Shown piece by piece: positions 1,121-22,265 of a DNA stretch of 38,005 bases. The notes under the pieces are model-generated. The model saw only the letters and a list, made by a program, of their open reading frames with translations, searched no databases and was not told the origin of the DNA. The number at the start of each line of letters is the position of its first letter. The first letter of the stretch is position 1. The position numbers and the translations under genes are program-made. This stretch comes from a virus, in the IMG/VR virus record IMGVR_UViG_3300044712_000313, positions 1 through 38,005 of that record; one strand, 5' to 3'.

Positions 1121-1374
1121 AAGGCCGCAACTACACCCATCAGGAAGGTCTTAATATCCTCTCCTGGGGCTACAAGGGGCTTCGTGATGATGAGTGGGAT
1201 AAGCAAGATCCTGTGCAGCCACAGAACCAGCCACCTCCTGCTGCTATGCCTAGTCCCGCTATAGAACTTCAGCAATACCTAGCTACGATGAAGCCAGGGG
1301 ACAGGGTGCCAGTGGTGGCTACTTCTGTGCAGTATAGTGAATACCTTAGAGGTGGCTATGGCTATGGTTATTAA
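1117..1374 (+). CDS. Small protein with Tyr/Gly-rich tail, unknown function
   Basis: The start is GTG 1117, preceded by GGGAGGAG at 1100-1107 and overlapping the previous stop as GTGA. An in-frame TTG at 1087 lies wholly inside the previous gene and is rejected. The product is 85 residues: a helical N-terminus (residues 7-25), a Pro/Gln-rich linker and a tail ending GGYGYGY. The 3' end overlaps the start of the glycosylase-exonuclease gene. No family is recognised. Confidence 0.5.
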   Translation: MKGRNYTHQEGLNILSWGYKGLRDDEWDKQDPVQPQNQPPPAAMPSPAIELQQYLATMKPGDRVPVVATSVQYSEYLRGGYGYGY

Positions 1375-2956
1375 GCCCTCCACTTGTAAGGGCTGCCCAC
1401 TTGAAACCCTAGGTTCTGGCTTCGCCCTCACCGATGGTAAGGGGGAGCAGGAGGTGCTAGTTGTCGCAGAAGCGTTGGGCCAAGATGAGGCGAGAGCCGG
1501 TCGCCCTCTTGTCGGGCAGGCAGGAAAGACCTGGGACCGCATTGTCTCTCGAACACATGATCCATTTCTGGGACGCACTCTCCAAAGAGACGACTTCCTC
1601 CACGCAAATGTCCTCAACTGCCAACCCCCAGGAAACATCCTCGTCAAGGCCCCTTATGAGTTCGGAGCAATCAGCCACTGCCGACCCCACCTGGAGAAAA
1701 CACTTAGGGATTTCAAGCCGAAGGCGATTGTAACCCTTGGGAACACACCGCTTAGATGGTTTACCGGGCAGTGGGGAGTCGAGAGCCTCAGGGGGTACAT
1801 CTTCGAAACCGAGTGGGGACCAGTCGTCCCCACCTACCACCCGAGTTACATTCAACGGGGTAATTTCCATCTTGCCCGAGTTGTCCAGCTTGATCTACTT
1901 AAAGCACTTACGGTCGCTAGAAAAGGGGTCAAGCATTTTGTCCTACCTAAAGCGTACGACATCAACCCTATGGCGGGGGACTTCCAGGACTTCATAACTA
2001 GGTACAAAGCTGCTGGTTGCCCCCCGCTAGCGTTCGACATTGAGACCCCCTACGGCTCAGCTTCCAAGGACGAAGACATGACCTTCGAGCAAGATGAAAG
2101 CTACACAATCCTCATGGTCAGCTTCGCCTTCGAGCCATTCAAGGCAGTCTCGGTACCGTGGATTGAGCCATACATCAGCATGACCAAAGAGCTTTTGGCT
2201 CTCCCTGGCACTAAGCTCTCCTGGAATGGCATCTCCTTTGACATCCCGCGCTTGCAGGCCAATGGCGTAACCTTTGGGGGCGAACTCGTAGATGTCATGC
2301 TAGCGTGGCATTGGCTGGAGCCCTCGCTGCCAATGGGCCTCAAGTGGGTAGCCCCCTTCTACTGCCCCGATATGCCACCCTGGAAGTTGCAGATGCATCA
2401 GAACTTCTCCTGGTACAACGCAGCGGACTCAGACGTTTTGCTTAGGGTATTCCTAGGGGTGAGGAAGGAGCTTGAGGAGCAGGGCCGGTGGAAGGTCTTC
2501 GAGAGGCACTTTGTGGAGTTCGGCAAGACTCTACAGAGGATGACCACTCGTGGAGTCACGGTGGATCACGTGGCTAGGAAAGCCGCTAGGGAGCACTTTG
2601 AAGCTAGGTTCTCGGAGACTGTAGCGCAGGCTCAGGCTCTCGCTCCCAAGGAGGTCTGCCCCTCGGACCCACCGCGTGGCTATAAGAAAACAGAAGAGCA
2701 ACTAAAGGAAACTGGCCTATGGCAGGAAGGCTCTATGCGACGTATTCTTGTAGAGCTCTCCCCCAAGGACCTGGAGGTGCGTGAACGTGTCGAAGAAAGA
2801 GCTAAGCGCCGAGCAGAGAAGAAAGCGGAACTTGAAAAGAAGCGCGCAGAGAAAGCGGCAGAAAGAGAAGCTAAGAGAGCAGCTAAGGCCCTCCTCAAAG
2901 CTACTAGAAAGCCTAGAAGTACTACTAAACGAAGAACTAAGGAGGTGGCAAGCTAA
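1358..2956 (+). CDS. Uracil-DNA glycosylase (family 4-like) fused to a DNA polymerase A type 3'-5' exonuclease
   Basis: This is a 532-residue fusion. Residues 1-190 resemble a family 4 Fe-S uracil-DNA glycosylase: four cysteines in the expected pattern (C10, C13, C88, C108), the active-site loop AEALGQDEARAGRPLVG near 37-53 and the HPS motif at 161-163. Residues 220-385 form a DnaQ-like proofreading domain with Exo I DIE (D227/E229), Exo II NGISFD (N290-D295) and Exo III YNAAD (Y353-D357). Residues 385-455 look like the start of the polymerase thumb, and the chain then ends in a Lys/Ala/Glu-rich coil (475-532) instead of the palm. The start could also be ATG 1364. AGAGG at 1348-1352 favours 1358. 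The polymerase palm is encoded separately downstream. Inferred role: proofreading and uracil sensing at the phage replisome. Confidence 0.85.
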   Translation: MAMVIKPSTCKGCPLETLGSGFALTDGKGEQEVLVVAEALGQDEARAGRPLVGQAGKTWDRIVSRTHDPFLGRTLQRDDFLHANVLNCQPPGNILVKAPYEFGAISHCRPHLEKTLRDFKPKAIVTLGNTPLRWFTGQWGVESLRGYIFETEWGPVVPTYHPSYIQRGNFHLARVVQLDLLKALTVARKGVKHFVLPKAYDINPMAGDFQDFITRYKAAGCPPLAFDIETPYGSASKDEDMTFEQDESYTILMVSFAFEPFKAVSVPWIEPYISMTKELLALPGTKLSWNGISFDIPRLQANGVTFGGELVDVMLAWHWLEPSLPMGLKWVAPFYCPDMPPWKLQMHQNFSWYNAADSDVLLRVFLGVRKELEEQGRWKVFERHFVEFGKTLQRMTTRGVTVDHVARKAAREHFEARFSETVAQAQALAPKEVCPSDPPRGYKKTEEQLKETGLWQEGSMRRILVELSPKDLEVRERVEERAKRRAEKKAELEKKRAEKAAEREAKRAAKALLKATRKPRSTTKRRTKEVAS

Positions 2957-3132
2957 TGGCTAATCAGTGCCAGCATCAGCATCTTTGCATTGAGTGTGGT
3001 AAACCCTACAAGTGTGACAAGCCAGAGTGTATGACCCTGCCTGCCAACGACTGGCAAGGGGGCTGTGATGTCTGCCTATGGAATCATGGTTGGCGGCAAG
3101 CCAAGGACCGGGTGCTACTTGAAAGCTTCTAA
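2956..3132 (+). CDS. Small Cys/His-rich putative zinc-binding protein
   Basis: The frame starts at ATG 2956 in a TAATG overlap with the exonuclease stop, preceded by AAGGAGG at 2938-2944, a strong ribosome binding site. The 58-residue product has seven cysteines (5, 11, 14, 20, 25, 37, 40) and early histidines (7, 9), including CIEC and CDVC pairs, so one or two zinc sites are likely. It sits in the gap between the exonuclease and polymerase parts of a family A polymerase. It could be a free zinc-finger accessory protein or a displaced zinc insertion of the polymerase. It overlaps the next frame by 65 bases. Confidence 0.6.
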   Translation: MANQCQHQHLCIECGKPYKCDKPECMTLPANDWQGGCDVCLWNHGWRQAKDRVLLESF

Positions 3133-3286
3133 ACTCCCTCCAACCCTAGAAGAACTCTTCAACGAGACCAAGGTCTCCCTCGACGTGGAGGCCCTGAGTA
3201 AGGAAGAGGCGAAGGAGAAGTGGGAGAAGACTGGAGACTTCGCGCTCTTGCCCAAGGGGAAGCGTGGCACTATTAAGCGAAGCTAG
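3068..3286 (+). CDS. Short frame between exonuclease and polymerase, possible polymerase linker
   Basis: The frame gives 72 residues from ATG 3068 (SD-like AGGGGG just upstream), or 66 from ATG 3086. The first 20 codons overlap the Cys-rich gene and may not be translated. The rest (LPPTLEELF to GTIKRS) is charged, helical and not recognised. It ends at TAG 3284-3286, 23 bases inside the polymerase frame. A +1 slip at the stop would read IKRS then RWTKVAPFNP, running smoothly into the polymerase thumb. It may therefore be the lost or recoded N-terminal part of the polymerase rather than an independent protein. Confidence 0.45.
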   Translation: MSAYGIMVGGKPRTGCYLKASKLPPTLEELFNETKVSLDVEALSKEEAKEKWEKTGDFALLPKGKRGTIKRS

Positions 3287-4448
3287 ATGGACTAAGGTCG
3301 CACCCTTTAACCCACTAAGCTCTAAGCAGGCCCTGGCTTACCTGAAGCTAAAGGGTTACAAGATCCCACTTGAGAGGAAGAGTGGGAAGCCTACTGCGAA
3401 TGAAGAAGCCCTAGAGAATATCCTAAGGTACAACAAGGATCCCCTCTTAGAGCTCATGCTTGACTGCCGTCACCTCTCTAAGGCAGTCTCCTACTTGCAA
3501 GACACCGCTATCGGTAGGGATGGGAAGTTCCATCCGATCTATAGCTTTAAGCCTGAAACAGGAAGACTCTCCAGCGTCAGGCCAAACATGCAGAACGTGC
3601 CCAACGGTGGTGTGGATGCTGAACTCGCGAAGGCAGTTCGCTCTTGTATTGTCCCCTCCCAGCCTGGGATGGTCCTTCTAGAGTGTGACTGGAAAGCCTG
3701 TGAAGCCGTACTCACAGGTTGGTTCGCTGGGGACGATGAGTACATTGCTGCCTCGCAGAAGGACTCTCACTCTTGGTTCGGTGGTTACATCCTTCGTGAG
3801 CTAGGCATCATCAAGGATGTTCCCTCGCCTAAGAGCGATGGCTTCATGGACTTCGCACACTGGCTTAAGAAAGAGCACCCGAAGGTTAGGAAAGAGGCCA
3901 AGCAGGTCAACCTAGCCACTGGCTATGGCATGCAGTGGAAGCACCTTTCCGAAGTCTTGCGCTGTAGTGCTGCTCAGGCTAAGCGCTACCTTGCCATCAA
4001 GGCTGCGATGGCACCTAAGATTGAAGCATGGAAGAACGCCACTTGGCTGGAGGCTCACAGGAAGGGCTTCTTAGAGACACCATTTGGTTATCGCTCTTAC
4101 TTCTGGAATGTCCTTCAACCTATCAAGTCTAAGCCTGGGAAGTTTCGCCCGGGTAAGGAAGCCAACGAAGCCCTAGCTTTCCGGCCTCAAAGCACTGGCG
4201 CTGCCATGCTACGAGAGGTCATGCTGGAGATTGAACTCTACAATGGAATTGAATCTGGCGGGCTCTTTAACATGCTAGTGCCCATCCATGATGCTATCCT
4301 GGTGGAGTGTTTCGAAAAAGATGTCCAAGCCTGTATGGATGTGATTGTTCCTAGCATGGCCCGATCCTGGGTGGAGCTAGGTGGCCTTTCCATCGGGGCT
4401 GACTGCAAGTCTGGCCCGAGGTGGAGTGAAATGGAGGAGGAAGACTAG
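3264..4448 (+). CDS. Family A DNA polymerase, polymerase domain
   Basis: The product is 394 residues from GTG 3264 (AAGGGGA immediately upstream). It begins at the thumb tip with FNPLSSKQALAYLKLKGY and carries the template-contact motif TGRLSS (99-104). Motif A is CDWKACEA, with D142 and E147 matching E. coli Pol I D705 and E710. Motif B is RKEAKQVNLATGYG, with R209, K213, L217 and Y221 matching R754, K758, F762 and Y766. Motif C is PIHDAIL, with D343 matching D882 but A344 in place of E883. The exonuclease and early thumb are in the separate gene at 1358-2956, so an active enzyme probably needs both chains or a recoding event. Leu at the 762 position is a known variant of viral family A polymerases. 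Confidence 0.9.
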   Translation: MALLSEARWTKVAPFNPLSSKQALAYLKLKGYKIPLERKSGKPTANEEALENILRYNKDPLLELMLDCRHLSKAVSYLQDTAIGRDGKFHPIYSFKPETGRLSSVRPNMQNVPNGGVDAELAKAVRSCIVPSQPGMVLLECDWKACEAVLTGWFAGDDEYIAASQKDSHSWFGGYILRELGIIKDVPSPKSDGFMDFAHWLKKEHPKVRKEAKQVNLATGYGMQWKHLSEVLRCSAAQAKRYLAIKAAMAPKIEAWKNATWLEAHRKGFLETPFGYRSYFWNVLQPIKSKPGKFRPGKEANEALAFRPQSTGAAMLREVMLEIELYNGIESGGLFNMLVPIHDAILVECFEKDVQACMDVIVPSMARSWVELGGLSIGADCKSGPRWSEMEEED

Positions 4449-4684: not shown

Positions 4685-5212
4685 TTACCGCCCAGACGTT
4701 CTTGCGAGCCTTCGGGCTCGCATTTGCTCTATCTTGGCCATGAGCTCCTTATAGCGTAGGTCTGGGTCTCCTGCAGCTGTTCTGGCTGCTAGCTCACTTG
4801 GCCGTCCTGCTTCAACCATCCACTCAGCATCATCAGGGGTGAGCCCTGAGGTCATGTACTCTGCGCGAAGCTTGCGCATTCCGGGTAGGTAGGCTTGGTC
4901 CATTTGATCAACGCCCCCTCCGTATAGCTGGTCAACATGCTCAATCTCATGGCGACGCTCCCAGGGCTGAGCCTTGGGGCTCACCCTAATCTTAGGGATG
5001 CCTTCTAAGCGCTGGCCATAGGTGCCCGGTTCGAACTCACCAACCTCTTCTACAAAGGGATAACCCCTAGGTGTGCGCTTAGCCCCCTTGAGGGGAACTC
5101 CTGGCATCATTTCAGCAAAGCGTTTCTCTGCATCTTGCACACTAGGATACTGTAGTGTGCTCAGCCCCTGTGGCTGTGCTGGCGCTGGTGGTCGCATCAA
5201 CTGGTCCGCCAT
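4685..5212 (-). CDS. Small HExxH protein, putative zinc metallopeptidase
   Basis: This 175-residue protein carries RRHEIEHVDQL (H88, E89, H92), the HExxH motif of zincins. A later acidic site in RPSELAAR (E140) is placed as a third metal ligand would be (H-E-x-x-H-x-D-Q then E). The N-terminus is Pro-rich and the C-terminus basic (ARRLARTSGR). Its ATG forms a TAATG overlap with the stop of the 2181-residue gene, so it is made with that protein. It may act on virion or host proteins after entry, or be an inactive structural relic. No signal peptide or membrane segment is present. Confidence 0.6.
   Translation of the reverse strand: MADQLMRPPAPAQPQGLSTLQYPSVQDAEKRFAEMMPGVPLKGAKRTPRGYPFVEEVGEFEPGTYGQRLEGIPKIRVSPKAQPWERRHEIEHVDQLYGGGVDQMDQAYLPGMRKLRAEYMTSGLTPDDAEWMVEAGRPSELAARTAAGDPDLRYKELMAKIEQMRARRLARTSGR
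4704..4726 (+). terminator. UUCG tetraloop hairpin, probable plus-strand terminator
   Basis: A perfect 7-base-pair stem GCGAGCC/GGCTCGC (4704-4710 and 4715-4721) closes a TTCG loop, which is the very stable C(UUCG)G tetraloop when read on the plus strand. It is followed by ATTTGCT, a weak U tract. It lies inside the last codons of the minus-strand gene 4685-5212, where it encodes RARRLA, and would stop read-through from the replication operon into antisense of the late genes. Confidence 0.55.
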
Positions 5213-8200
5213 TAGTCTTTCACCTCTTCTTCTAGATCACTCTTGAGGAAGCCCTTGAGGGCTGGGAGCTTCAGCTTCGCGCCACCAAAGGTCAGGGTCT
5301 TCTCCCTTACATCCTTGTTCACAGGCTGAATCTTGCCTGCCTTCCAATTCTGCACAACCTGTCGCTTCATTCTCCGATTAACCCCATAGACCTCGTTGAG
5401 CTTAGCAATGCGCATAGCTAGCGCCTTGCGCTGCTGCTCTGTGGTCTTCGCCTTATAGGAGGGGCTCTCGATGAACTCACTCAGAACCTTCGTGATCAGT
5501 GGCATGTAAAGCTTGTCGTGATCCGCCAGCTCACGAGCGCTAGCGGTGTAGTACAGACGCTTGCCGAACTTGTCCTTACCAGGGAGGCTGACATTCACAC
5601 CTAGGCGTGGGTCCCCAACTCCAAGGCGTCTTTGCTCTTTCGCTAGCTTAGTGGTTTGCTCTCGCGTGGCCCCAGTTGCCCAGTCTTCCTTACTGCCTAG
5701 TCCTGCGCTCACGCCTGTGCCTAGAAGCATCATCGGAATTAGAGCTAGGTGCTTTGGGTTTTCCTTGGTGATATTGATGAAGTCCTCAACGCTGAGGGGG
5801 CTCAGGATATCCCTTGCAGTCTGCTGTGCTTCGTCCCAGTTCTCTGGGGCCTTGGGTGCCTTCCCGCTCGGGGAACGCTGCCCTGTGATGGCATCATAGA
5901 GCATGCCGCCTCCCGGTGACATCTTGCTCCGAGCGAACCGCATAAGTGTTACCGCCGGGTTCTTCGGAACTACCTTGCCTGTGGAGACTTCCTTCTCGGA
6001 GCCAGTGATCACCTGGAAGGCAGTGCGGATGGGCTGCTGGAAGCTGGCCCAGGTATCCACTACGGTGTTGCCTAGTTTGATCTTAGCGAAGTTGCTGCTC
6101 CTGGGGTCGAGGTCGACTTCAGGTTCCTCGCCAGCTAGGGTAGCTAGGGCAGTTAGGCTGCCAACTAGCGCAAGGTTAGCTGCAACCGCTCTCAGTGCTG
6201 TCCCTCTCGCGTACGCCTTCGCCTCTGGGGTAGTGTAGTTGTTAAACCCAGTCATGGCGTTCTTAATCATCCTAAGCCTAGAGCTCTGCATCTGCTGAGA
6301 GAAGACCATCAGGTTGACATACTTAGCTGCGTCCCCACTTACGAAGCCCTGACCCCTAGAAGCTGCGTTGTTGATCATATGGGCGATCTCCCTCACTGCC
6401 TCATGAGGAGCCTTGGAGGAAGAGAGCTCGACATAGTTCATTGCATGCTTGAAAGCATCGAGCATAGCGCGGTCCTGGTAGTAGGTATAGGACCTCTCTG
6501 AGCCCTCAACTACGCTCTCTAGGAACTTAGCTGGGTGCTTCACGCCAGGGAGCTTTTGGCCAAGTTTTAGGGCTTGTACTAGTGGCTGTTTACCAAAGAA
6601 CGCTTCCTGCTGCGCTGTGCCTTCCCCTGTGAAGTTAACCCCTGCTTCCTTAGCGAGTTTCCAGTCGGGGTCATCGGTCATCTCTTTCCTGAGCTGTTCC
6701 CCTCCTGCCTTCTTCCAGGAGGCCACCATATCCCCTAGGTTCTTCCTTAGCTGGTTATCCTTCCTCCACACCTTTGGATCCCTGAAGGCCTGATCCATCG
6801 TGAGCATCCAGGTCTGGCGAAGTGGGTTTGAAAGGTCAGCAATCGTCTTCATGGTGGTGCTCACGTTGAATGCACTACCAAGCCAACTCGCGATTGCCTT
6901 ACTCCTAGTTACATGGGCGGGTTCGATGCCTTTCCTAGGGTTAGGCCTAGTAGCCTTAAGGGCGTCTTCCAGCTCTAGGCGCTTGGCTTTTGGGATTGCA
7001 GCACCAGCACTCTTACCAGGAAAAGGCTTCATTTGCCTCTCACCTGCAGACCTGTGCTGCAGGGCAATCTGATGAATTGCTTCCATATAGGCAGCTGCGC
7101 GCTGAGCCTTGGGCAGTTCTCCAAGGTTTACCTGTCCATCAATGATCTTGATTGCGGTAAGCGACGTTGGGTAGCGCTTAACGATCTCCTTTACGAGGGC
7201 TACTGTCTCCGGTGTGGCCTTGGTGTCAGACCTAGCATCAGCGGATACCTTCTCAAGCAGGGCATCAGCCTTCTTGCCGAAGCCTAGTCGAGGAGGTGGA
7301 GGCTGCATTCCAAGAGCATCACCCTCAGCTTCCTTTAGCCCCTTAAGGGTCTTCCGCTCCTCAGGTGTGAGGCTCGCATACTTCTCTCTTCCCTGTAGGG
7401 TCTTCATGCTGGAAGAGATGTCACTCGCAGCTCTTTCTGCCTCTGCTTGCTGCATGGCAGCATTCCGCTGGTAGCGCTTGTTTAGTATGGCGCTGTCAAC
7501 AAACTGGCTCTCGACTTCGGAGCCTAGGAGTTCATCTGGCCGAAGTTCGATCTCGTTTCCGACCTTCTCGTTCCGGTCCATCCAGCGGAAGCGCCGTGCG
7601 GTTTCCGCCTCACCCGTCCTCTTGCCTTTCCTCTCCGGGTGCGTACGCATTCGCATAGGCAGAGCAGGATCAAGGGTAGGTGGCAGGGTGGCTTGGTTCC
7701 CACCCTTACCTGATGGCATCCCAATAGCACCCTCGTACTTCTGAGGGAACACCCCGCCAGGGTACTCATTAGGATTCATGTCATAGGTCTTCTTGGTTAG
7801 CTGCTCCCGCCTAACTGGAGCCTGCCCCTTCTTCGCGCCTTCAGCCTTGGAGGGCCGAAGGTCAACTGGCCCCTGAACGTTAGGTTTTCCGTAGAGGGCA
7901 ATCTGGGAGCGCTCAGGCGAAGCTCCTGCCGGAGGCGGGGTCATTGGCTTGCTGGGCTGTCCAGGCTTGAGGTCCGACCAGAACTCTTCTACCTGCTTTA
8001 GGTTAGCCTTCTCGTAACGCTCTGCCCCGCCGATACGCTCGTAGGCCTTTTGCACCTCCGCCTGCGCTGCGGGGTTATTCTTGTAGCCCTTCTCAACCGC
8101 ATCCTCATAGACCAGCCGTGTGGCATCGAGCTCGCTGAACTTCTTGCCAGCCTCTGGCATAACAGTCCCTAGCTCGGTGATGCTCTTCAGCCCGCGAAGC

Positions 8201-11200
8201 CTAGCGTATTCCTTGAAGGTCTTCCGCATTCCAGGGATCTGCGCTGCATCAAGGTCTACCTTGCTAAGCAGCCTTTCCTTAACTACGCTTCCGTCCTTGG
8301 CAGTCCAGTCTCGGGTGCGTGTCTCGGTAGGCACAACGCTCGGTGATGGCACCGGGATATCAACAGCCTTGATCTCTACTTTGCCACGCTTGATGACAGC
8401 ACGTTCGGCCTTTCGAGTCTTCTGCACCCTAAGGGGAGTGAAGCCCTCGGGCACAGGAGTGAGCTTAGGCTGTCCACTAGGCTTGCCTTCCTTAGCAGCG
8501 TTCTCCTGTGCAGCCTTTGCCGACTTGGCCATGATGCGCGCCTGACGGATTCTCTTCCGCTCTAGGTGCCTATGCGCTTCGGTGCTTCCACCAAATGCAG
8601 GCCGTGGAGCAGTAGCTGCGATCTGGTCCCTAAGGCTCTCGATCTCCTTGATTAGAGCTGCCCTATCAATGGGCTTCCTCTCAGGAGGTGCCCCTGCAGG
8701 AAGTAGCCCCTTAGGCGTGAACCTCTCCCTTAGTGCCTGTGCTCTTTCCCAGATACCCTTGACATCCATCTTCGGACGAGGCTTGCCAGGAGCGGGCTTA
8801 GCAGGCTTAATGTACTCTGCTAGTGCTTCCTTGTCGCCACTTGCTAGAGCCTTGGAGATGTCAATCTGCTCTTGAGGAGAAAGGATCCGCCGCCTAGCCA
8901 TCCTAAGCTGTCTGGCTTCCTCGGGTGTGAGGGCAGCTCCGGCTCGCCGACCAGCGATCCTAGGCCCAGCCTGTGTGGGCTTCTTGACTGGTGCTTCCCC
9001 AGTAACTGCTCCTTCAACTTGCTCCATAGGGAACTCATCTAGGATGCTGGACTTCTGCTTAGCGGCTACAGTGGGCTTCTTCTCTCTAACTCTAGCTCTG
9101 GTCTCCTGTCTGATAGACTTAACACCAGCCTTAGCTGCATCCCTGGCTGAAGCTTCCGCGACCCTAGTAGCGTGTTGCTTCTGTGCCTCGGTAGCGTTTG
9201 CACTTCCTAGTACCTGTTCAACCGTATCCATAATCCGGCGGAAGATGCTGAGTTTCTCTGTAGGGTTGCTCATTCTGTTGGCCCTAGAGCGTGCATCGTT
9301 AAGGGCCTGAATACTAGAGGGTACCTTTTCCTTGTCCATCGCCAATGCGATAGAGTGCTGCTTCTCCCTGTAGGCTGCCTTCTGTTCAGGCGTGTACCTA
9401 TCCCCTAGCGCCTTAGGGTTAGTTCCCTGCGCCCTGGGATTGGTTCCCTGCTCTCTTTGATCCCTCGGTCCACCCCACACCCTAGGCTTAGCATTCGTAA
9501 CGCTGCTCATCGCCTTGATGGTGTCGTTGAGCTTAGCCAGTTGTGGTGATGGTCCCTTGCCTGCTAGCTGATGCGCTTGCGCTCGGAAGTTCGCTAGTGT
9601 TCTCTGCCAGAGGGCCTTGTCCATTCCGAAGTCTTCAGGCTTAACTGCCTCGCCACCCTTGATAGCAATTTCTTCTGCAAGGGCCTTCATGTGGTCGGCA
9701 ACCTCGTCAGCGCTAAAGGCAGCCTCACCACGCTTGTTGTGGCGGCCTACGTTCTCAGCGCTAGCAAGACGCTCCTTCAGAGTGGAGGCCCAAGTCTTTA
9801 GGTTCTCCACTGGCGAGAGCGGGCTCTCCATAGGAATGGGCTCTTCAACTGCTCTACTCTGTGAGGCTCTCCAACGCTCAGCAGCTTCCTGCCCTAGCTT
9901 GGGGTTCCCGAGAAGTGCCTGATAAACAGGGTGCTTTAGCAGGGGGTCAGTAGCTGGTGGTCCCTGCATCTTGCCCTCTAGCTCAGCTCTCTGCTCAGCT
10001 AGAAGCTTTAGCCTTCGATCTTCGATAGCTGCCTGCACGCGCTCGGGCTTGTATACCCCAGCCTGTGCGCCAGCTTCCATGCGCTTCCTAAAGAGGCCTA
10101 GCTGCGCTGCCCTTGCTGGGTCTAACTTATCCTCACCCCTAGCAGCACCAGCACGCCTACCTTCCATCCTAGCCTTAAGCGCCTCTACTAGTGCAGCCGG
10201 CTGGCCGTCTTTCCCTCGGTCCTGCAGATTGTAGGGAGTGCCCTTTTCCGTGCCACCAATGCCCAGGCCTTCAATCAGCCCTAGTGTCTCAGGAGAGTAG
10301 GTACCTGCTTCAACCGCCTGAGGGGTTTCACCCCGAAGGTTGGAGGCTAGCTCGGGGTCTCCACCAATGAGCTCCCCCTGAACCCTCGTACTCTCAAGCC
10401 CCTTAAGGAGGCTCTCTAGCTTCCTGGTAGTGTAAACATCCGAGATGTCCTGCGTCCTGTCGTCAAAGAACTCCCCTGATCGAGAGTGCCCATGAGGGTT
10501 CTGGTCAACAGGAGTTCCTTCTAGCCCAGTGGTGGGGTCTATCGTCCCCGGCCTAGCTTTGTTCTTGTTTAGGAAGTGTGCGAACTCATGGCTAACAAGC
10601 CTGATAGCCCTAGCCTGTAGGCCCGCCGCATCACCCGCCTGCAGGAGTGACCCCACCCCAGTGGGCGACATGATGATCTTTGGACCTGACTCATCAATGG
10701 TGAAGTAGACACCGTTAGTCGTGGTGGCTGTAGCTAGCCCCGGCTGAGGTGCGTCACTATAGACTACCTCGACTGGCTGCGGTGGCTTCTCACCAGGGTA
10801 GAAGAAGTCCCCAGGACCTTCGGTCTGCGCTTGTGCCCGTGCGTAGTCTTGCGCTAGAGCAGAGTTTAGCTGCTGCGCGAGGGAGTTCATTACTCCCATG
10901 ACCTTCCCAGTGATAGGGTGGTTAGGAGGAACAGGCTCAGGCGGGGCCATCTGCTCAGGCGTCAGCTCAGGCCGAGGAAGCCCTTCGACTAGCTCTGCAT
11001 CAAGACTAGTGTCCTCTAGGGAGTTAAGCGCTGGAGGCTTACTGATGCTCTGGTCAGTGGGTCGGCCATTCTTAATAAGAGGAATCCTGCTACGCTGTTG
11101 TTGGGTTCGAACCTCTTCACCCGCAGTCGGCCCCTGCTTATGGGAAGCATGCCCTGCCTCACCACCGAGGAAGGCACCTAGCATCACTCCGCCTGAGCCA

Positions 11201-11757
11201 AGGATCTCCATAGCCCTAGGAGTGAGCTCCGTCTTACCTTCCATCTCCTTCTGGTACTCTTGGGCAGCATCAAGCATACCCTTACCGACTAGGGCTCTAA
11301 AGCCCCACTGGAGGATGTTGCCAGCCTTCCCAGGTAGCCCAGGCGCGATCATCGCAGGGTCAGTGGCCATCTCCATGGAAGCCTCATTGGCTCCCTTAAC
11401 TAGGCCTGCAGCTTTGGGCTGCCCCATCGCGCTTAGGCCCCTTGCTGCAGCTTGGTTGACTAGGTTAACTCCACCAGCAATTGGGTTGATCGTCGCCCCT
11501 AGCAGTGGGTGCTTCGTCATGAAGTCCCCCATGCCACTCACTGGCTCTTGCCCCGCTAGGCGTAGTGCCGGGTTAGCCATCGCCGAGAAGGCATAGTCGG
11601 TGCCCTTCTTAGGGAGGCCTGCTAACTCCCCGAAGAAGTCGATCCCCTTACCTAGGAGGCCCATCCCTGAAGAAGGGGCTGCCTGCTCTGGGTCTTCCTG
11701 CGGAGGCGCACTAGCTCCTCCGAACTGACTCTTTAGGAGATCATAATTAATCGGCAT
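5212..11757 (-). CDS. Giant (2181 aa) polyvalent-type internal virion protein with HExxH metalloprotease motif
   Basis: This is by far the largest gene. Residues 1-210 are Gly/Ala-rich and moderately hydrophobic. Residues 330-450 hold a zincin-like segment with SHEFAHFL (H390, E391, H394). Residues 450-1450 are highly charged, helical and low in cysteine, with Arg/Lys/Glu/Pro linkers. The last 600 residues include a hydrophobic stretch near 1855-1872, then DPRSSNFAKIKLGNT and VVDTWASFQQP near 1880-1905, which resembles the C-terminal module of large phage polyvalent proteins. Such proteins are packaged and ejected with DNA. Gene order (after two Gln-rich proteins, like T7 gp14-gp15-gp16) supports an internal core or ejection role. 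TAATG overlaps couple it to genes on both sides. Confidence 0.7.
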   Translation of the reverse strand: MPINYDLLKSQFGGASAPPQEDPEQAAPSSGMGLLGKGIDFFGELAGLPKKGTDYAFSAMANPALRLAGQEPVSGMGDFMTKHPLLGATINPIAGGVNLVNQAAARGLSAMGQPKAAGLVKGANEASMEMATDPAMIAPGLPGKAGNILQWGFRALVGKGMLDAAQEYQKEMEGKTELTPRAMEILGSGGVMLGAFLGGEAGHASHKQGPTAGEEVRTQQQRSRIPLIKNGRPTDQSISKPPALNSLEDTSLDAELVEGLPRPELTPEQMAPPEPVPPNHPITGKVMGVMNSLAQQLNSALAQDYARAQAQTEGPGDFFYPGEKPPQPVEVVYSDAPQPGLATATTTNGVYFTIDESGPKIIMSPTGVGSLLQAGDAAGLQARAIRLVSHEFAHFLNKNKARPGTIDPTTGLEGTPVDQNPHGHSRSGEFFDDRTQDISDVYTTRKLESLLKGLESTRVQGELIGGDPELASNLRGETPQAVEAGTYSPETLGLIEGLGIGGTEKGTPYNLQDRGKDGQPAALVEALKARMEGRRAGAARGEDKLDPARAAQLGLFRKRMEAGAQAGVYKPERVQAAIEDRRLKLLAEQRAELEGKMQGPPATDPLLKHPVYQALLGNPKLGQEAAERWRASQSRAVEEPIPMESPLSPVENLKTWASTLKERLASAENVGRHNKRGEAAFSADEVADHMKALAEEIAIKGGEAVKPEDFGMDKALWQRTLANFRAQAHQLAGKGPSPQLAKLNDTIKAMSSVTNAKPRVWGGPRDQREQGTNPRAQGTNPKALGDRYTPEQKAAYREKQHSIALAMDKEKVPSSIQALNDARSRANRMSNPTEKLSIFRRIMDTVEQVLGSANATEAQKQHATRVAEASARDAAKAGVKSIRQETRARVREKKPTVAAKQKSSILDEFPMEQVEGAVTGEAPVKKPTQAGPRIAGRRAGAALTPEEARQLRMARRRILSPQEQIDISKALASGDKEALAEYIKPAKPAPGKPRPKMDVKGIWERAQALRERFTPKGLLPAGAPPERKPIDRAALIKEIESLRDQIAATAPRPAFGGSTEAHRHLERKRIRQARIMAKSAKAAQENAAKEGKPSGQPKLTPVPEGFTPLRVQKTRKAERAVIKRGKVEIKAVDIPVPSPSVVPTETRTRDWTAKDGSVVKERLLSKVDLDAAQIPGMRKTFKEYARLRGLKSITELGTVMPEAGKKFSELDATRLVYEDAVEKGYKNNPAAQAEVQKAYERIGGAERYEKANLKQVEEFWSDLKPGQPSKPMTPPPAGASPERSQIALYGKPNVQGPVDLRPSKAEGAKKGQAPVRREQLTKKTYDMNPNEYPGGVFPQKYEGAIGMPSGKGGNQATLPPTLDPALPMRMRTHPERKGKRTGEAETARRFRWMDRNEKVGNEIELRPDELLGSEVESQFVDSAILNKRYQRNAAMQQAEAERAASDISSSMKTLQGREKYASLTPEERKTLKGLKEAEGDALGMQPPPPRLGFGKKADALLEKVSADARSDTKATPETVALVKEIVKRYPTSLTAIKIIDGQVNLGELPKAQRAAAYMEAIHQIALQHRSAGERQMKPFPGKSAGAAIPKAKRLELEDALKATRPNPRKGIEPAHVTRSKAIASWLGSAFNVSTTMKTIADLSNPLRQTWMLTMDQAFRDPKVWRKDNQLRKNLGDMVASWKKAGGEQLRKEMTDDPDWKLAKEAGVNFTGEGTAQQEAFFGKQPLVQALKLGQKLPGVKHPAKFLESVVEGSERSYTYYQDRAMLDAFKHAMNYVELSSSKAPHEAVREIAHMINNAASRGQGFVSGDAAKYVNLMVFSQQMQSSRLRMIKNAMTGFNNYTTPEAKAYARGTALRAVAANLALVGSLTALATLAGEEPEVDLDPRSSNFAKIKLGNTVVDTWASFQQPIRTAFQVITGSEKEVSTGKVVPKNPAVTLMRFARSKMSPGGGMLYDAITGQRSPSGKAPKAPENWDEAQQTARDILSPLSVEDFINITKENPKHLALIPMMLLGTGVSAGLGSKEDWATGATREQTTKLAKEQRRLGVGDPRLGVNVSLPGKDKFGKRLYYTASARELADHDKLYMPLITKVLSEFIESPSYKAKTTEQQRKALAMRIAKLNEVYGVNRRMKRQVVQNWKAGKIQPVNKDVREKTLTFGGAKLKLPALKGFLKSDLEEEVKD

Positions 11758-17668: not shown

Positions 17669-20097
17669 TACGTTCCACCTTCCTTTCTAAGGTAAGGCGG
17701 GTAACCTGCGGTGCCGAAGGGATTCAGAGGCTGATATGTATTCCCCGTCTGCCAAGGCTTGGCGAAAAGCACAGAGTCTTCCCCGTAGAATCTAAAGGGA
17801 GCAGTGCTCTCTAGCTTAAAGCCCCAGTGCTTCCCGAGGAAGGGAGCTAGTTCCTGGTAGACCTTAGCCCTCAGGCCAGCAGTACTCGCCAGTGTGTAAG
17901 GTGGGTGCGTGATCCCATCTGTGGTCACCGTCAGCGTCACCGCTGCAGTACTCCTAAGGCCCCAATAGGAATCCTTAATATGGAAGAGCCCCGCCATCCC
18001 CAAGCTCTGCTCTGGGTGCTCCCAGTGAACTATCGCTTCCTCGTCCTCCCTAAAGAGGAGGACTGCTTGGTAAAGCTTAGGATGCGTAGAAGAGCTCTCA
18101 CTCCACTGGAAGTCGAAGGCAATGCTCTTTGCGTAGTAGTCGTCAAGCGAGTAGGTGGCAACTCTCCTACCAGCGTTGTCATTAGCAGTCCCAGTCTTGA
18201 AAGAAGTCCCAGCTGTCTTCTCCGAGTCATAGTACGGGGTGATGGTGATATCCACGTTGTTCGGGTCGAAGTCGAGCATCAGGGTGCCGAACTCCTTGTG
18301 GGTAAGAGGGATGCCGGAGTCCCAGCTGCCGGTCCGTAGTTGCACATTCAGGGTCTCATTCACATTCGAGTAGGAGTCATTGAAGTCCCAGAGGTACTGG
18401 TCCTGTGCGGTGCCGATGATGAGCTGGTTCCAGTTCTGGCCCTCGTTGTAGTACACAACTGAGGCCCTATCGGGAGTCCACTCAAACCACTTGCCATCTT
18501 CGAGCTGCATCACTAGGTGGAAGAGCTTTTGAGTTGTCTGCCCAGGGTAGATGAAGTGGAGCTCCCTGTTGGTCACATAGAGTCTGATCTTGTCAGACTG
18601 CACGTAGTCGATAGCCTCTAGGTCACCAGCGGGCCGCCCCCTAAAGATCGGCCTGATAGTGGTGTCTGTCAGATTGACTGGTGTATCCGGCTGGCAGTTC
18701 GTTGCATAGATGCCATCCTTGGAGCAGATGTACACTGCGTTAGGGCCAACGGCGCAGGCCCACTTACCAGCAACTCCCATCCCAATCGGGATCTCCCTAG
18801 GGGTGAACTCAGGCGTAGAACTCGGCCCACCATAGTCTAGGGCATAGAGTCTCTTGGTCGAGAACACGAATGGGTTCCCACCAAAGACGAAGCCATTCAG
18901 CAGTTCCTCCGCTGGGTCACTCACTGCATTCACATTGTTCAACTGGTTATGCTTCCCTAGGTCATCAGTCGAGTTCCAGTACACGTAGTTCTTCTTGACT
19001 GGATCCCCAACCCAGAAGAGGTACTTCCCCTGGAAGGGGCCGAAGCAGTAAGAGAACTTCTGTCCTGTCAGTGCTGCCCCACTAGAGTCAATGGTTGAGA
19101 AGATCTCCACTAGCTCAGCATCAATGGTCTCCGCTAGGGCTGCAGTAGCATCAGGCACGTTGTCGGTGATGTTCGTGGTGCCTACAGTGCCGTCATTCAC
19201 CGCAGTGCCAACTAGCCGCCAGGAGTTGCTAACCGCACCTCCCTTGCGCCATAGCCTGATCTGGTCCACCGCACCCGCTGTAGTCTTCGTGCAGGTGATC
19301 ACTGCGTTCTGCGCGCTAAGCACTACCGAGGAGGCAATGATTGCTCCTAAGGGACTCTCGAAGCCGGTCTTGGTGTTCTTGTAGGTGGCAGCATAGTAGT
19401 AGGTGCCAGTGAGTACACCAGCAGGGGTGGAGTCCTTAGTGGGAGCAATCGGAGCGGTGATCCCTAGGTTGTAGGCATAGAGGATCGGCACGTTCGGTAG
19501 TGTTGGTCCTCCAATGGCGAAGCTAGTTGCTGTCACTGGTGGAGCCGTCAGGTTGCAATCCTTCAGGGCGATCCACCACTTTCCATCCACGATCACTAGT
19601 GGAATCCCATTAGGCGCGTTAGCCAGAATGATCGAGTTCCCTGTGGGATCAATGAAATCCCCGTAGCGAGTAGCGCTAGTGGGCCACCCTGCTGGGTTGG
19701 AAAGAGCCACCTGGGAACTCTTTAGCATCACTGGCACGCCATTGATAAAGACTCTCGCGAGAGGATCAGTGTAGCCTGTCATCCTAGGAGTGGCAGCATG
19801 AATAGTCAAGTAACCATTTACTAAGCCAGCGCTAGTGGTAACCTTACCGATGTAGCGCACAGCCCTTAGGGAGCCTACTCCCCAGAGCCCTGGGTAAGGA
19901 CTATCCAAGTACCCTGCTAGCTGCTGCTGCGGCATTACAAAGTACCCACTTGCAGGCCGAGCTTCAATAGCTCCTTCAATGTTGGGCCTAACATTCAGTG
20001 CCCTAGTTAGCTGCCCATCATTTAGGAGCTCTGGAGGGTGCGTAACATCAAGGCCTCCTAGGACGAACCTGAAGGGTTGATTTCTATAGTCTGCCAT
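17668..20097 (-). CDS. Probable tail nozzle/hub protein (T7 gp12 or P22 gp10 type)
   Basis: This 809-residue, beta-rich, nearly Cys-poor protein starts MADYRNQPFRFVLGGLDV, then PPELLNDGQLTRALNVRP and IEGAIEARPASGY, the opening seen in podovirus nozzle and DNA-stabilisation proteins. Repeated strands (GKYLFWVGDP, NGFVFGGNPFVFS, AVYICSKDGIYA, LIIGTAQDQYLWDF) fit a beta-propeller. It lies between connector-type genes and fibre genes, as expected for the tube end of a short tail. The family assignment is by pattern and position and should be tested by structure prediction. Confidence 0.6.
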   Translation of the reverse strand: MADYRNQPFRFVLGGLDVTHPPELLNDGQLTRALNVRPNIEGAIEARPASGYFVMPQQQLAGYLDSPYPGLWGVGSLRAVRYIGKVTTSAGLVNGYLTIHAATPRMTGYTDPLARVFINGVPVMLKSSQVALSNPAGWPTSATRYGDFIDPTGNSIILANAPNGIPLVIVDGKWWIALKDCNLTAPPVTATSFAIGGPTLPNVPILYAYNLGITAPIAPTKDSTPAGVLTGTYYYAATYKNTKTGFESPLGAIIASSVVLSAQNAVITCTKTTAGAVDQIRLWRKGGAVSNSWRLVGTAVNDGTVGTTNITDNVPDATAALAETIDAELVEIFSTIDSSGAALTGQKFSYCFGPFQGKYLFWVGDPVKKNYVYWNSTDDLGKHNQLNNVNAVSDPAEELLNGFVFGGNPFVFSTKRLYALDYGGPSSTPEFTPREIPIGMGVAGKWACAVGPNAVYICSKDGIYATNCQPDTPVNLTDTTIRPIFRGRPAGDLEAIDYVQSDKIRLYVTNRELHFIYPGQTTQKLFHLVMQLEDGKWFEWTPDRASVVYYNEGQNWNQLIIGTAQDQYLWDFNDSYSNVNETLNVQLRTGSWDSGIPLTHKEFGTLMLDFDPNNVDITITPYYDSEKTAGTSFKTGTANDNAGRRVATYSLDDYYAKSIAFDFQWSESSSTHPKLYQAVLLFREDEEAIVHWEHPEQSLGMAGLFHIKDSYWGLRSTAAVTLTVTTDGITHPPYTLASTAGLRAKVYQELAPFLGKHWGFKLESTAPFRFYGEDSVLFAKPWQTGNTYQPLNPFGTAGYPPYLRKEGGT

Positions 20098-22265
20098 TAC
20101 TGCCCTCCATAGATGAACTTAGTAAGTTCGACGCCAGCACTGTAGAGTTCCTCGCAGGCCCTTGCTCTAGCGGGGTCATTCATCTCCCCTTCCTGGGAAA
20201 GCAGCTCTGCTAACACCCCGTATTTCACTGGCCACCAGAGCACGTAGGGTAGTGGGAAGGGAGACCAGGGACTTGCAACTCCGCCTCCACCCCAGGGAGT
20301 GCCCACGCATCCACAGCCAGTTGGAACTGTCGCTAGCGTTGGCGCTGGTACATACCATGCCTTCAGGGTGGTGACATTCGAGGCTGGTACTAGCTGGATG
20401 CTCAGGCCATCAGGTAGGGGATCCCGGATGTACTGTACACCACTTAGGGAGCCCTGTGAGAGATCAGCTTCTAGCTGGTCTACAGGAAGAATGGCGTAGC
20501 TGTCGGCCTCCAGGCGACGGAGTTCAACTAGATCTGTCGGAAGGGCATACAGGCCTGAGGAACCCGTGATCGTGGCTTCCTTCCTAAGGAGACCCGTGTC
20601 TAAGAGGAACCTTACTAGCCTGTCATAGGTGACTCGTAGGACCTTAGTGATCCCACCAAATCTAGTAAAGCCACCAGTAGCTAGGTAGGCTGTGCTGGAA
20701 GGAAGGGGCTCGATCAAGTGATTCCAAAGCTCGTCTAGGAAGTCTGCGTAGCTCGCTCCTGCGGGTAGCACACACACGTAGTTAGTCTGAGTGCTGGTGG
20801 AGTTGTCTGAACCATTCACTACCTGCAGAGCTACCGTGTAGGTCCCTGCAGTGGTATACGTATGTGAGGGACTCTGGCTTGTGCTAGTGCCTGTGTCTCC
20901 AAAGGTCCACCCCCAGCTCACCACATCCCCCGTGGAGGTATCCTTGAACTGCACTACTAAGGGTGCTACTCCAAAGGTAGGTGAGGCTGTGAAGGAAGCT
21001 GTAACTTTAGCTGGTAGGATAGTAAAGTTTGAAGTGGTGCTCTTGGTCCCTGCAGGGTTAGTAGTTGCCAGGGTAGCCCAAGCAGCGCCTGCTGTGGTGA
21101 ACACATGTACTGGGTTCTGTGAATCACTAGTGCTCCCATCTGAGAAGGTCCAAGCCCAAGTGGTTGGGTTATTAGTAGCGCTTCCTGTGAAGGCAAAGCT
21201 CACTGGCCGTCGAAGAGTAGCAGGTGTAGCCACATAGCTAATCGTCGGCGTGGGCCTGCCATCCGCTGCCACAATGAGGTTGCTCTTAGTAACTGTGCTG
21301 GTATCTGCCCCTGTGCCTCCTGCCCTAGTGGCAGTCAGGCTCACAGAGTAGGTCCCTGCAATCATGTATGCATGTGAGGGATTCTGTAGGGTGCTAGTTC
21401 CCCCATCACCGAAGGTCCAACTCCAAGTTGTGGGAGCTGGCGTACCTGTAGTGGTGTCAGTGAACTGGACAGCGAAAGGTGTAGACCCTGAGGTATAGTT
21501 ACAGCTAAAGCCTGCCTGTAGGTCAGTTGAGCTAGCATTAACCGTAATGTATGAGGTCTTAGTAACTGAGCCTGAACCCGAGGAGTTGGTGGCTGTCAGT
21601 GTAACCGTATAGGTCCCTGGGTTCGCGTAGGGGTGCGTGGGATTCTGCGTAGTTCCATGCGTAGTGCTATCCCCATAGTCCCAGTCCCAACTAGTGGGAG
21701 TGTTGCTCGAAGTGTCAGTAAAGGTGACACTTAAGGGGTTGAAGCCACTTAGAGGTGTAGCTGTGAAATTCGCCACTGGCGCAGCTGCAGCTACATAGGT
21801 GATGGTAACGTAGAGGTTATCCACCCCGAAGTACACACCTGAGTTCAGCGCCTTGTTGATCTCGACTCCGAAGATCAGAGAGGACAAATCGGAGGAAGTC
21901 CAGCTTCCCCCACCCGGCCTAGCTAGTGCTCCCGTAGTACTGAAGTAGTAAGAGTGCCCATCATTCTCTGGACCATATACCCTAGTAGAGCCCAGCTGCA
22001 CGAAGAACTTCAGCCGGGAGTCCGTGCTCCCCGAGCGCTGTACCGTGCTATAGATCTCCACCTGGGAGATGCTAGTGATGCTAGGAATGCTGGCGGGGTT
22101 CAGCGTATACGAGTCCCTGCTTTGGCTTCCTAGGTCCTGCACCTGAATAATCTTGCTATCCCCAGCTGCTACCACGCAGGGTACATGGTCTAAGGCTGTC
22201 CCTGCTCCTACATTAGTCCAGTCTCTCTCACTCTGCGCGTAGGGGATGAAATCAAAAGTTGCCAC
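20097..22265 (-). CDS. PKD-repeat virion protein fused to a connector-like C-terminal domain
   Basis: This is a 722-residue protein starting at GTG 22265 (TAGTG overlap). Residues 1-158 form a beta-sandwich-like domain (LIFGVEINKALNSG, VYFGVDNLYVTITY). Four PKD-type Ig-like domains follow at about 163-242, 249-333, 339-417 and 420-500, each with the W-x-W-x-F/Y-GD/SDG strand and an AGTY-type or related loop. The third is degenerate (FSDGSTS, AGAAW). Residues 503-722 are helical (ADFLDELWNHLIEPL, VLWWPVKYGVLAELL, LYSAGVELTKFIYGG) and resemble phage adaptor proteins. PKD domains on virions usually project and bind glycans, so the design joins a connector ring to decorative arms. Confidence 0.7.
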   Translation of the reverse strand: MATFDFIPYAQSERDWTNVGAGTALDHVPCVVAAGDSKIIQVQDLGSQSRDSYTLNPASIPSITSISQVEIYSTVQRSGSTDSRLKFFVQLGSTRVYGPENDGHSYYFSTTGALARPGGGSWTSSDLSSLIFGVEINKALNSGVYFGVDNLYVTITYVAAAAPVANFTATPLSGFNPLSVTFTDTSSNTPTSWDWDYGDSTTHGTTQNPTHPYANPGTYTVTLTATNSSGSGSVTKTSYITVNASSTDLQAGFSCNYTSGSTPFAVQFTDTTTGTPAPTTWSWTFGDGGTSTLQNPSHAYMIAGTYSVSLTATRAGGTGADTSTVTKSNLIVAADGRPTPTISYVATPATLRRPVSFAFTGSATNNPTTWAWTFSDGSTSDSQNPVHVFTTAGAAWATLATTNPAGTKSTTSNFTILPAKVTASFTASPTFGVAPLVVQFKDTSTGDVVSWGWTFGDTGTSTSQSPSHTYTTAGTYTVALQVVNGSDNSTSTQTNYVCVLPAGASYADFLDELWNHLIEPLPSSTAYLATGGFTRFGGITKVLRVTYDRLVRFLLDTGLLRKEATITGSSGLYALPTDLVELRRLEADSYAILPVDQLEADLSQGSLSGVQYIRDPLPDGLSIQLVPASNVTTLKAWYVPAPTLATVPTGCGCVGTPWGGGGVASPWSPFPLPYVLWWPVKYGVLAELLSQEGEMNDPARARACEELYSAGVELTKFIYGGQ

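Follow-up and report, generated by a model that had tools for sequence, protein, structure and literature searches.

The window, the whole stretch of 38,005 nucleotides analysed here, is a viral contig, from a virus of bacteria, in which a family A DNA polymerase lies on two separate genes, with the cut falling within the thumb (Table 1). Family A polymerases are textbook one-chain replicases. The first of the two genes (chain 1) combines a uracil-DNA glycosylase (UDG), the proofreading exonuclease and the first thumb helix, while the second (chain 2) encodes the palm and fingers. For chain 1, similarity to its closest relative, the IMG/VR contig 3300027900_000009 (hereafter L001), begins at ATG 1364, and the stop codon is 2954-2956. 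A preliminary description, made from the letters of the DNA, had placed the palm gene some 300 bases later, and indeed its frame begins at 3264, 307 bases past that stop. In the intervening region (2950-3300) stops are present in all three frames, and therefore no simple read-through joins the two chains; nor does one continuous frame run from UDG to palm, as in a single-chain UDG-polymerase fusion. Both chains match the PHROG DNA polymerase profile, over profile positions 472-938 and 896-1236 respectively, such that together the chains cover one polymerase. Elsewhere in the window, on the minus strand, a 722-residue protein (20097-22265) has PKD repeats and a C-terminal SU10-type adaptor domain, which is odd for a head-tail adaptor, and a gene for 2181 residues (5212-11757) has no Pfam or PHROG match.

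Table 1. Genes and sequence features at the split polymerase locus.
Feature	Position	Strand	Remarks
Chain 1: UDG, 3'-5' exonuclease, first thumb helix, basic tail	1364..2956	+	Frame open from GTG 1337
Uracil-DNA glycosylase domain, family-4 type	1376..1927	+	Pfam UDG, E 9.5e-19
Exonuclease motifs	2033..2434	+	Exo I FDIET 2033-2047; Exo II WNGISFD 2222-2242; Exo III YNAADSD 2414-2434
Thumb helix H region (QRMTTRGVTVDHVARKAAREHFEARFSETVAQAQALAPK)	2537..2650	+	Alignment with T7 gp5 and single-chain relatives
Chain 1 share of thumb insertion (PxRGY ... VEL)	2651..2758	+	Common to single-chain sisters
Lys/Arg/Glu/Ala-rich tail	2759..2953	+	25 K+R and 12 D+E in 65 residues; predicted long helix
Cys-rich protein, 58 residues	2956..3132	+	Six of seven Cys kept in L001; ribosome site
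Gap without conserved reading frame	3133..3263	+	Upstream part of the 3065-3286 frame falls here
Chain 2: helix H1 onward, palm, fingers	3264..4448	+	GTG start; Pfam DNA_pol_A, E 3.6e-39
Polymerase motifs	A CDWKACE 3684-3704; B RKEAKQVNLATGYG 3888-3929; C IHDAI 4284-4298	+	TGRLSS also found
Helical protein after chain 2, 55 residues	4448..4615	+	L001 counterpart, pairwise E 2e-6

The N-terminus of chain 1 has its nearest solved relative in the T. maritima UDG TM0511 (E 1e-20), and along with this fold match it contains the four cysteines of a family 4 UDG as candidate Fe-S ligands (C8, C11, C86 and C106), as well as an HPS motif. Its first UDG motif reads AEALG as opposed to GEAPG, and the glycosylase activity of chain 1 is therefore not certain. 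The three 3'-5' exonuclease motifs of a family A polymerase are all intact on this chain; in other words, the gene is as first described, with the Exo motifs and the first thumb segment followed by a coil and then a stop. The AlphaFold model of chain 1 has a pLDDT of 33. Chain 2 starts about 14 residues before the FNPxSS motif of helix H1 (FNPLSS begins at 3306) and has Taq, Klenow and Bst polymerases as its nearest solved relatives. It contains motifs A, B and C together with TGRxSS, the set that marks a family A polymerase. Two variants are common to the window and L001: HDA replaces HDE in motif C, and motif B has, by alignment, a Leu at the 762 position, a substitution that in Taq polymerase lowered the speed and raised the accuracy (PMC6302109). 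The ribosome site of the GTG start of chain 2 is moderate in the window and weak in L001.

Between the two chains, the start of the Cys-rich frame overlaps the chain 1 stop by one base (TAATG), and a ribosome site, AAGGAGGT, lies directly 5' of it. The L001 homologue has 59 residues and 47% identity, with six cysteines invariant between the two proteins, among them the conserved pairs of a zinc ribbon or finger. Family and fold searches against known zinc families gave no match, as did a Foldseek search with the model of the protein (a weak one, pLDDT 65). A conserved small Cys-rich gene is thus present between the chains, and its product is probably zinc-binding and may be a polymerase accessory. 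The novel zinc-finger accessory of the preliminary description is retained to this extent, with zinc or polymerase binding as no more than an inference. The L001 protein also gave a weak match (E 5) to exonuclease subunits from O4 and other Pseudomonas phages, a type of subunit that ends in a zinc ribbon and belongs to another exonuclease family, RNase_H_2 (1517 phage records); accordingly the match was rejected as homology. As a separate observation, the O4 genome (L030) encodes such a detached RNase_H_2-type subunit with a C-terminal zinc ribbon at 5404-6171, and similar subunits are common in phages. The short helical frame at 3065-3286, which had also been noted between the polymerase genes, was rejected as a gene: L001 has nothing equivalent, and its palm gene follows after a gap of only 72-99 bases.

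L001 was assembled independently and has the gene order of the window: a 519-residue UDG-exonuclease with a basic coil at its end, then the Cys-rich gene, then a palm gene that starts just before FNPxSS, like chain 2. Between the two contigs chain 1 is 62% identical, the Cys-rich protein 47% and the palm protein 68% (identical residues 289/436 in the chain 1 core, 26/55 and 265/384). Since synonymous sites are saturated, constraint was assessed not by dN/dS but by randomisation, in which the observed substitutions were redistributed randomly among the same codons in 2000 trials. None of the 2000 trials reached the observed identities for the chain 1 core, the Cys-rich gene or the palm, and by this sequence comparison all three genes are under constraint. 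The basic tail resembles that of L001 in composition and is weakly kept in sequence, its distal part being reached in 80 of 2000 randomisations. A pseudogene was rejected in view of this constraint and of the catalytic motifs, which are intact on both chains. Frameshifting or read-through was likewise rejected, given the stops in all frames and an offset between the chain 1 and Cys-rich frames that differs between the window and L001. The arrangement is known from these two genomes only, both metagenomic and read from sequence alone, and two scans of genome contigs for further relatives found none.

Single-chain relatives were found in five contigs by DNA-pattern and alignment scans (L024/L033, L026/L035, L028/L034, L036 and L037). 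Four of these could be read to the end; that in L028 is truncated in the fingers but runs unbroken past the position at which the window is split. Those of L024 and L028 are 31-36% identical to the split proteins over chain 1 and about 28% over the palm, and more distant UDG-exonuclease-polymerase phages, also single-chain, are vir526, ctfzr933 and ctMlz233. The earlier statement that glycosylase-polymerase fusions are normally one chain therefore holds in related contigs and beyond them. In L033, small Cys-containing frames follow the single-chain polymerase gene (3403-3916), with no detectable relation to the 58-residue protein.

In trees that took in four of the five single-chain contigs, and whose root is placed by more distant polymerases, most of which are single-chain, the window and L001 group together at 100/100 and the single-chain clade is their sister, also at 100/100, when both halves are joined. 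Separate trees of the UDG-exonuclease and palm halves agree, with the window and L001 together at 100% and the single-chain sisters as one group (86/92 and 100/99), such that both halves share one history. From this agreement and from the sister position of the single-chain relatives, fission in the lineage of the window and L001 is the simplest history and the most likely one. The relationship of the two lineages is not confined to the polymerase, as the L037 phage and the window also have in common a terminase and a portal protein (31% identity).

The place of the cut appears to be older than the cut itself. Four of the single-chain relatives (L033, L035, L036 and L037) contain, between helix H and FNPxSS, 63-101 inserted residues; this insertion begins P..GY/GF like the corresponding part of chain 1 and ends R(W/L).K/R..PFNP like the start of chain 2. 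The thioredoxin-binding domain of T7 polymerase aligns to the same gap as the window cut, from helix H to H1; the window is thus cut at an insertion between the same two thumb helices as in T7. The preliminary description had offered, as an alternative to a natural two-subunit enzyme, an insertion of about 500 bases into the thumb loop. Of this proposal the thumb insertion itself predates the split, being present in single-chain sisters, and what is new is the basic tail, the Cys-rich gene and a short gap.

The reading preferred here is that a single-chain glycosylase-exonuclease-polymerase underwent fission inside this pre-existing thumb insertion and now works as two functional chains, to which a probability of roughly 0.75 is assigned. 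Helix H on chain 1 would pack with the remaining thumb on chain 2, such that the chains come together non-covalently, since a complete thumb needs both; UDG, proofreading and synthesis would then be brought together on one complex. It could instead be supposed that the chains act apart, chain 2 as a polymerase that has no proofreading domain attached and chain 1 as a uracil-acting nuclease that shares only the operon, in keeping with the complete motifs of chain 2 and the detached exonuclease genes known in LUZ24 and kuraviruses (PMC9965538). This is rather improbable: the well-conserved helix H of chain 1 would be useless without the other thumb parts, chain 2 alone would be without that helix, and both halves give the same tree.

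That the window is a metagenome assembly raises the thought of an assembly error or a decayed gene, for which the probability is negligible, given that L001 has the same arrangement and retains every motif, its proteins being 47-68% identical. Indeed, with this layout in L001 and a single chain in their cousins the split looks natural, and the search for relatives proposed earlier returned one with the same split, its closest, and continuous-frame relatives in a clade of their own; the two-chain natural state first suggested is thereby upheld against sequencing error or decay. Slightly more credible, and still very improbable, is an intron or intein in one gene that yields a single chain after splicing. 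Phage polymerase genes often contain group I introns, and the authors who described the split polymerase of MEP401 left an intron possible there (PMC10580990). No Rfam intron was found in the window up to E 5, however, whereas the LUZ24 polymerase intron, as a control, was found at 2e-8, and the RNA of the region is not more stably folded than shuffled sequence (z +0.8 and +1.4). Nor did Pfam contain an intein domain match; the chain ends are instead a basic coil and the start shortly before FNP, and the insertion part of chain 1 and the Cys-rich gene are conserved as protein.

In T7 polymerase a 71-residue loop binds thioredoxin (PMC3997047); thumb insertions serve processivity factors (PMC7699545), and the thioredoxin-binding domain raises processivity when moved to other polymerases (PMC5984650). 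The site that the processivity factor occupies in T7 is where the basic tail and the Cys-rich gene originated. By analogy, both the tail and the Cys-rich protein, which probably binds zinc, may be located at the thumb insertion and assist the enzyme in holding DNA like T7 thioredoxin, a suggestion made tentatively and at rather less than even odds. Close to an even chance is given to the Cys-rich gene being an unrelated passenger, perhaps a host-directed factor, without part in the polymerase. No family or fold match ties its product to polymerases, it is undetected in the three single-chain sister records searched, and the 77-residue gene in the MEP401 split, which has no cysteine, indicates that small genes in such splits need not be alike; against this, it is in place and constrained in both split genomes, and the independently split polymerase of phage ctLwi270 has a zinc ribbon at the same position, both of which are no more than suggestive. 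An unlikely extension of the T7 analogy is a three-part replicase, cut at the processivity-factor site, in which the 58-residue zinc protein and the basic tail would rejoin the chains and clamp DNA. If true, the phage would encode for itself an equivalent of thioredoxin, which T7 takes from its host. More generally, a natural and conserved cut in the thumb shows where the family A fold tolerates fission, and points to the thumb insertion as a site at which processivity modules are gained and lost. Two chains and one protein of 58 residues make a small test system, and a naturally split polymerase could serve as a laboratory tool.

Among known systems, a family A polymerase split has been reported for MEP401 and MEP402 of the Zobellviridae (PMC10580990), which likewise encode the polymerase in two genes and have a small gene between these. 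They differ in being without UDG and in having the cut just before motif A in the palm, which is not where the window is cut. LUZ24 and the kuraviruses resemble the window in keeping exonuclease and polymerase on separate genes, but there whole domains are separated and the thumb is uncut; in LUZ24, moreover, the polymerase gene is interrupted by a group I intron. Like the window, ctLwi270 (MW202554; L006) has a UDG-exonuclease gene, then a polymerase gene, and between them a frame for a small protein, here a zinc ribbon. Its cut lies at the border of exonuclease and thumb, however, and its ribbon is of the NrdR type (PF22811, E 5.8e-15). The tree requires two separate fissions, one in ctLwi270, whose branch is long, and one in the window and L001; a scan seeded with ctLwi270 found no relative. 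The ctLwi270 ribbon (2944-3138) is unannotated and overlaps the end of the first polymerase gene in another frame, and its only usual start is far upstream (ATG 2878), which makes a frameshift fusion or an assembly slip possible.

The single-chain relatives L033, L035, L036 and L037 share with the window the domain order UDG-exonuclease-polymerase as well as the thumb insertion, and differ in being one chain, with no Cys-rich homologue detected in three sister records. T7 gp5 has its insertion, also basic, at the same place from helix H to FNPxSS, but it is one chain used with host thioredoxin, and the insertions are without clear sequence similarity. In the open-access literature (PubMed Central) no report was found of a thumb-internal cut or an interposed Cys-rich protein in a phage family A polymerase, and an earlier report elsewhere is possible. 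Phage polymerases of this family split at other places were known already; what appears to be new in the window and L001 is the cut inside the thumb with a Cys-rich gene between the chains.
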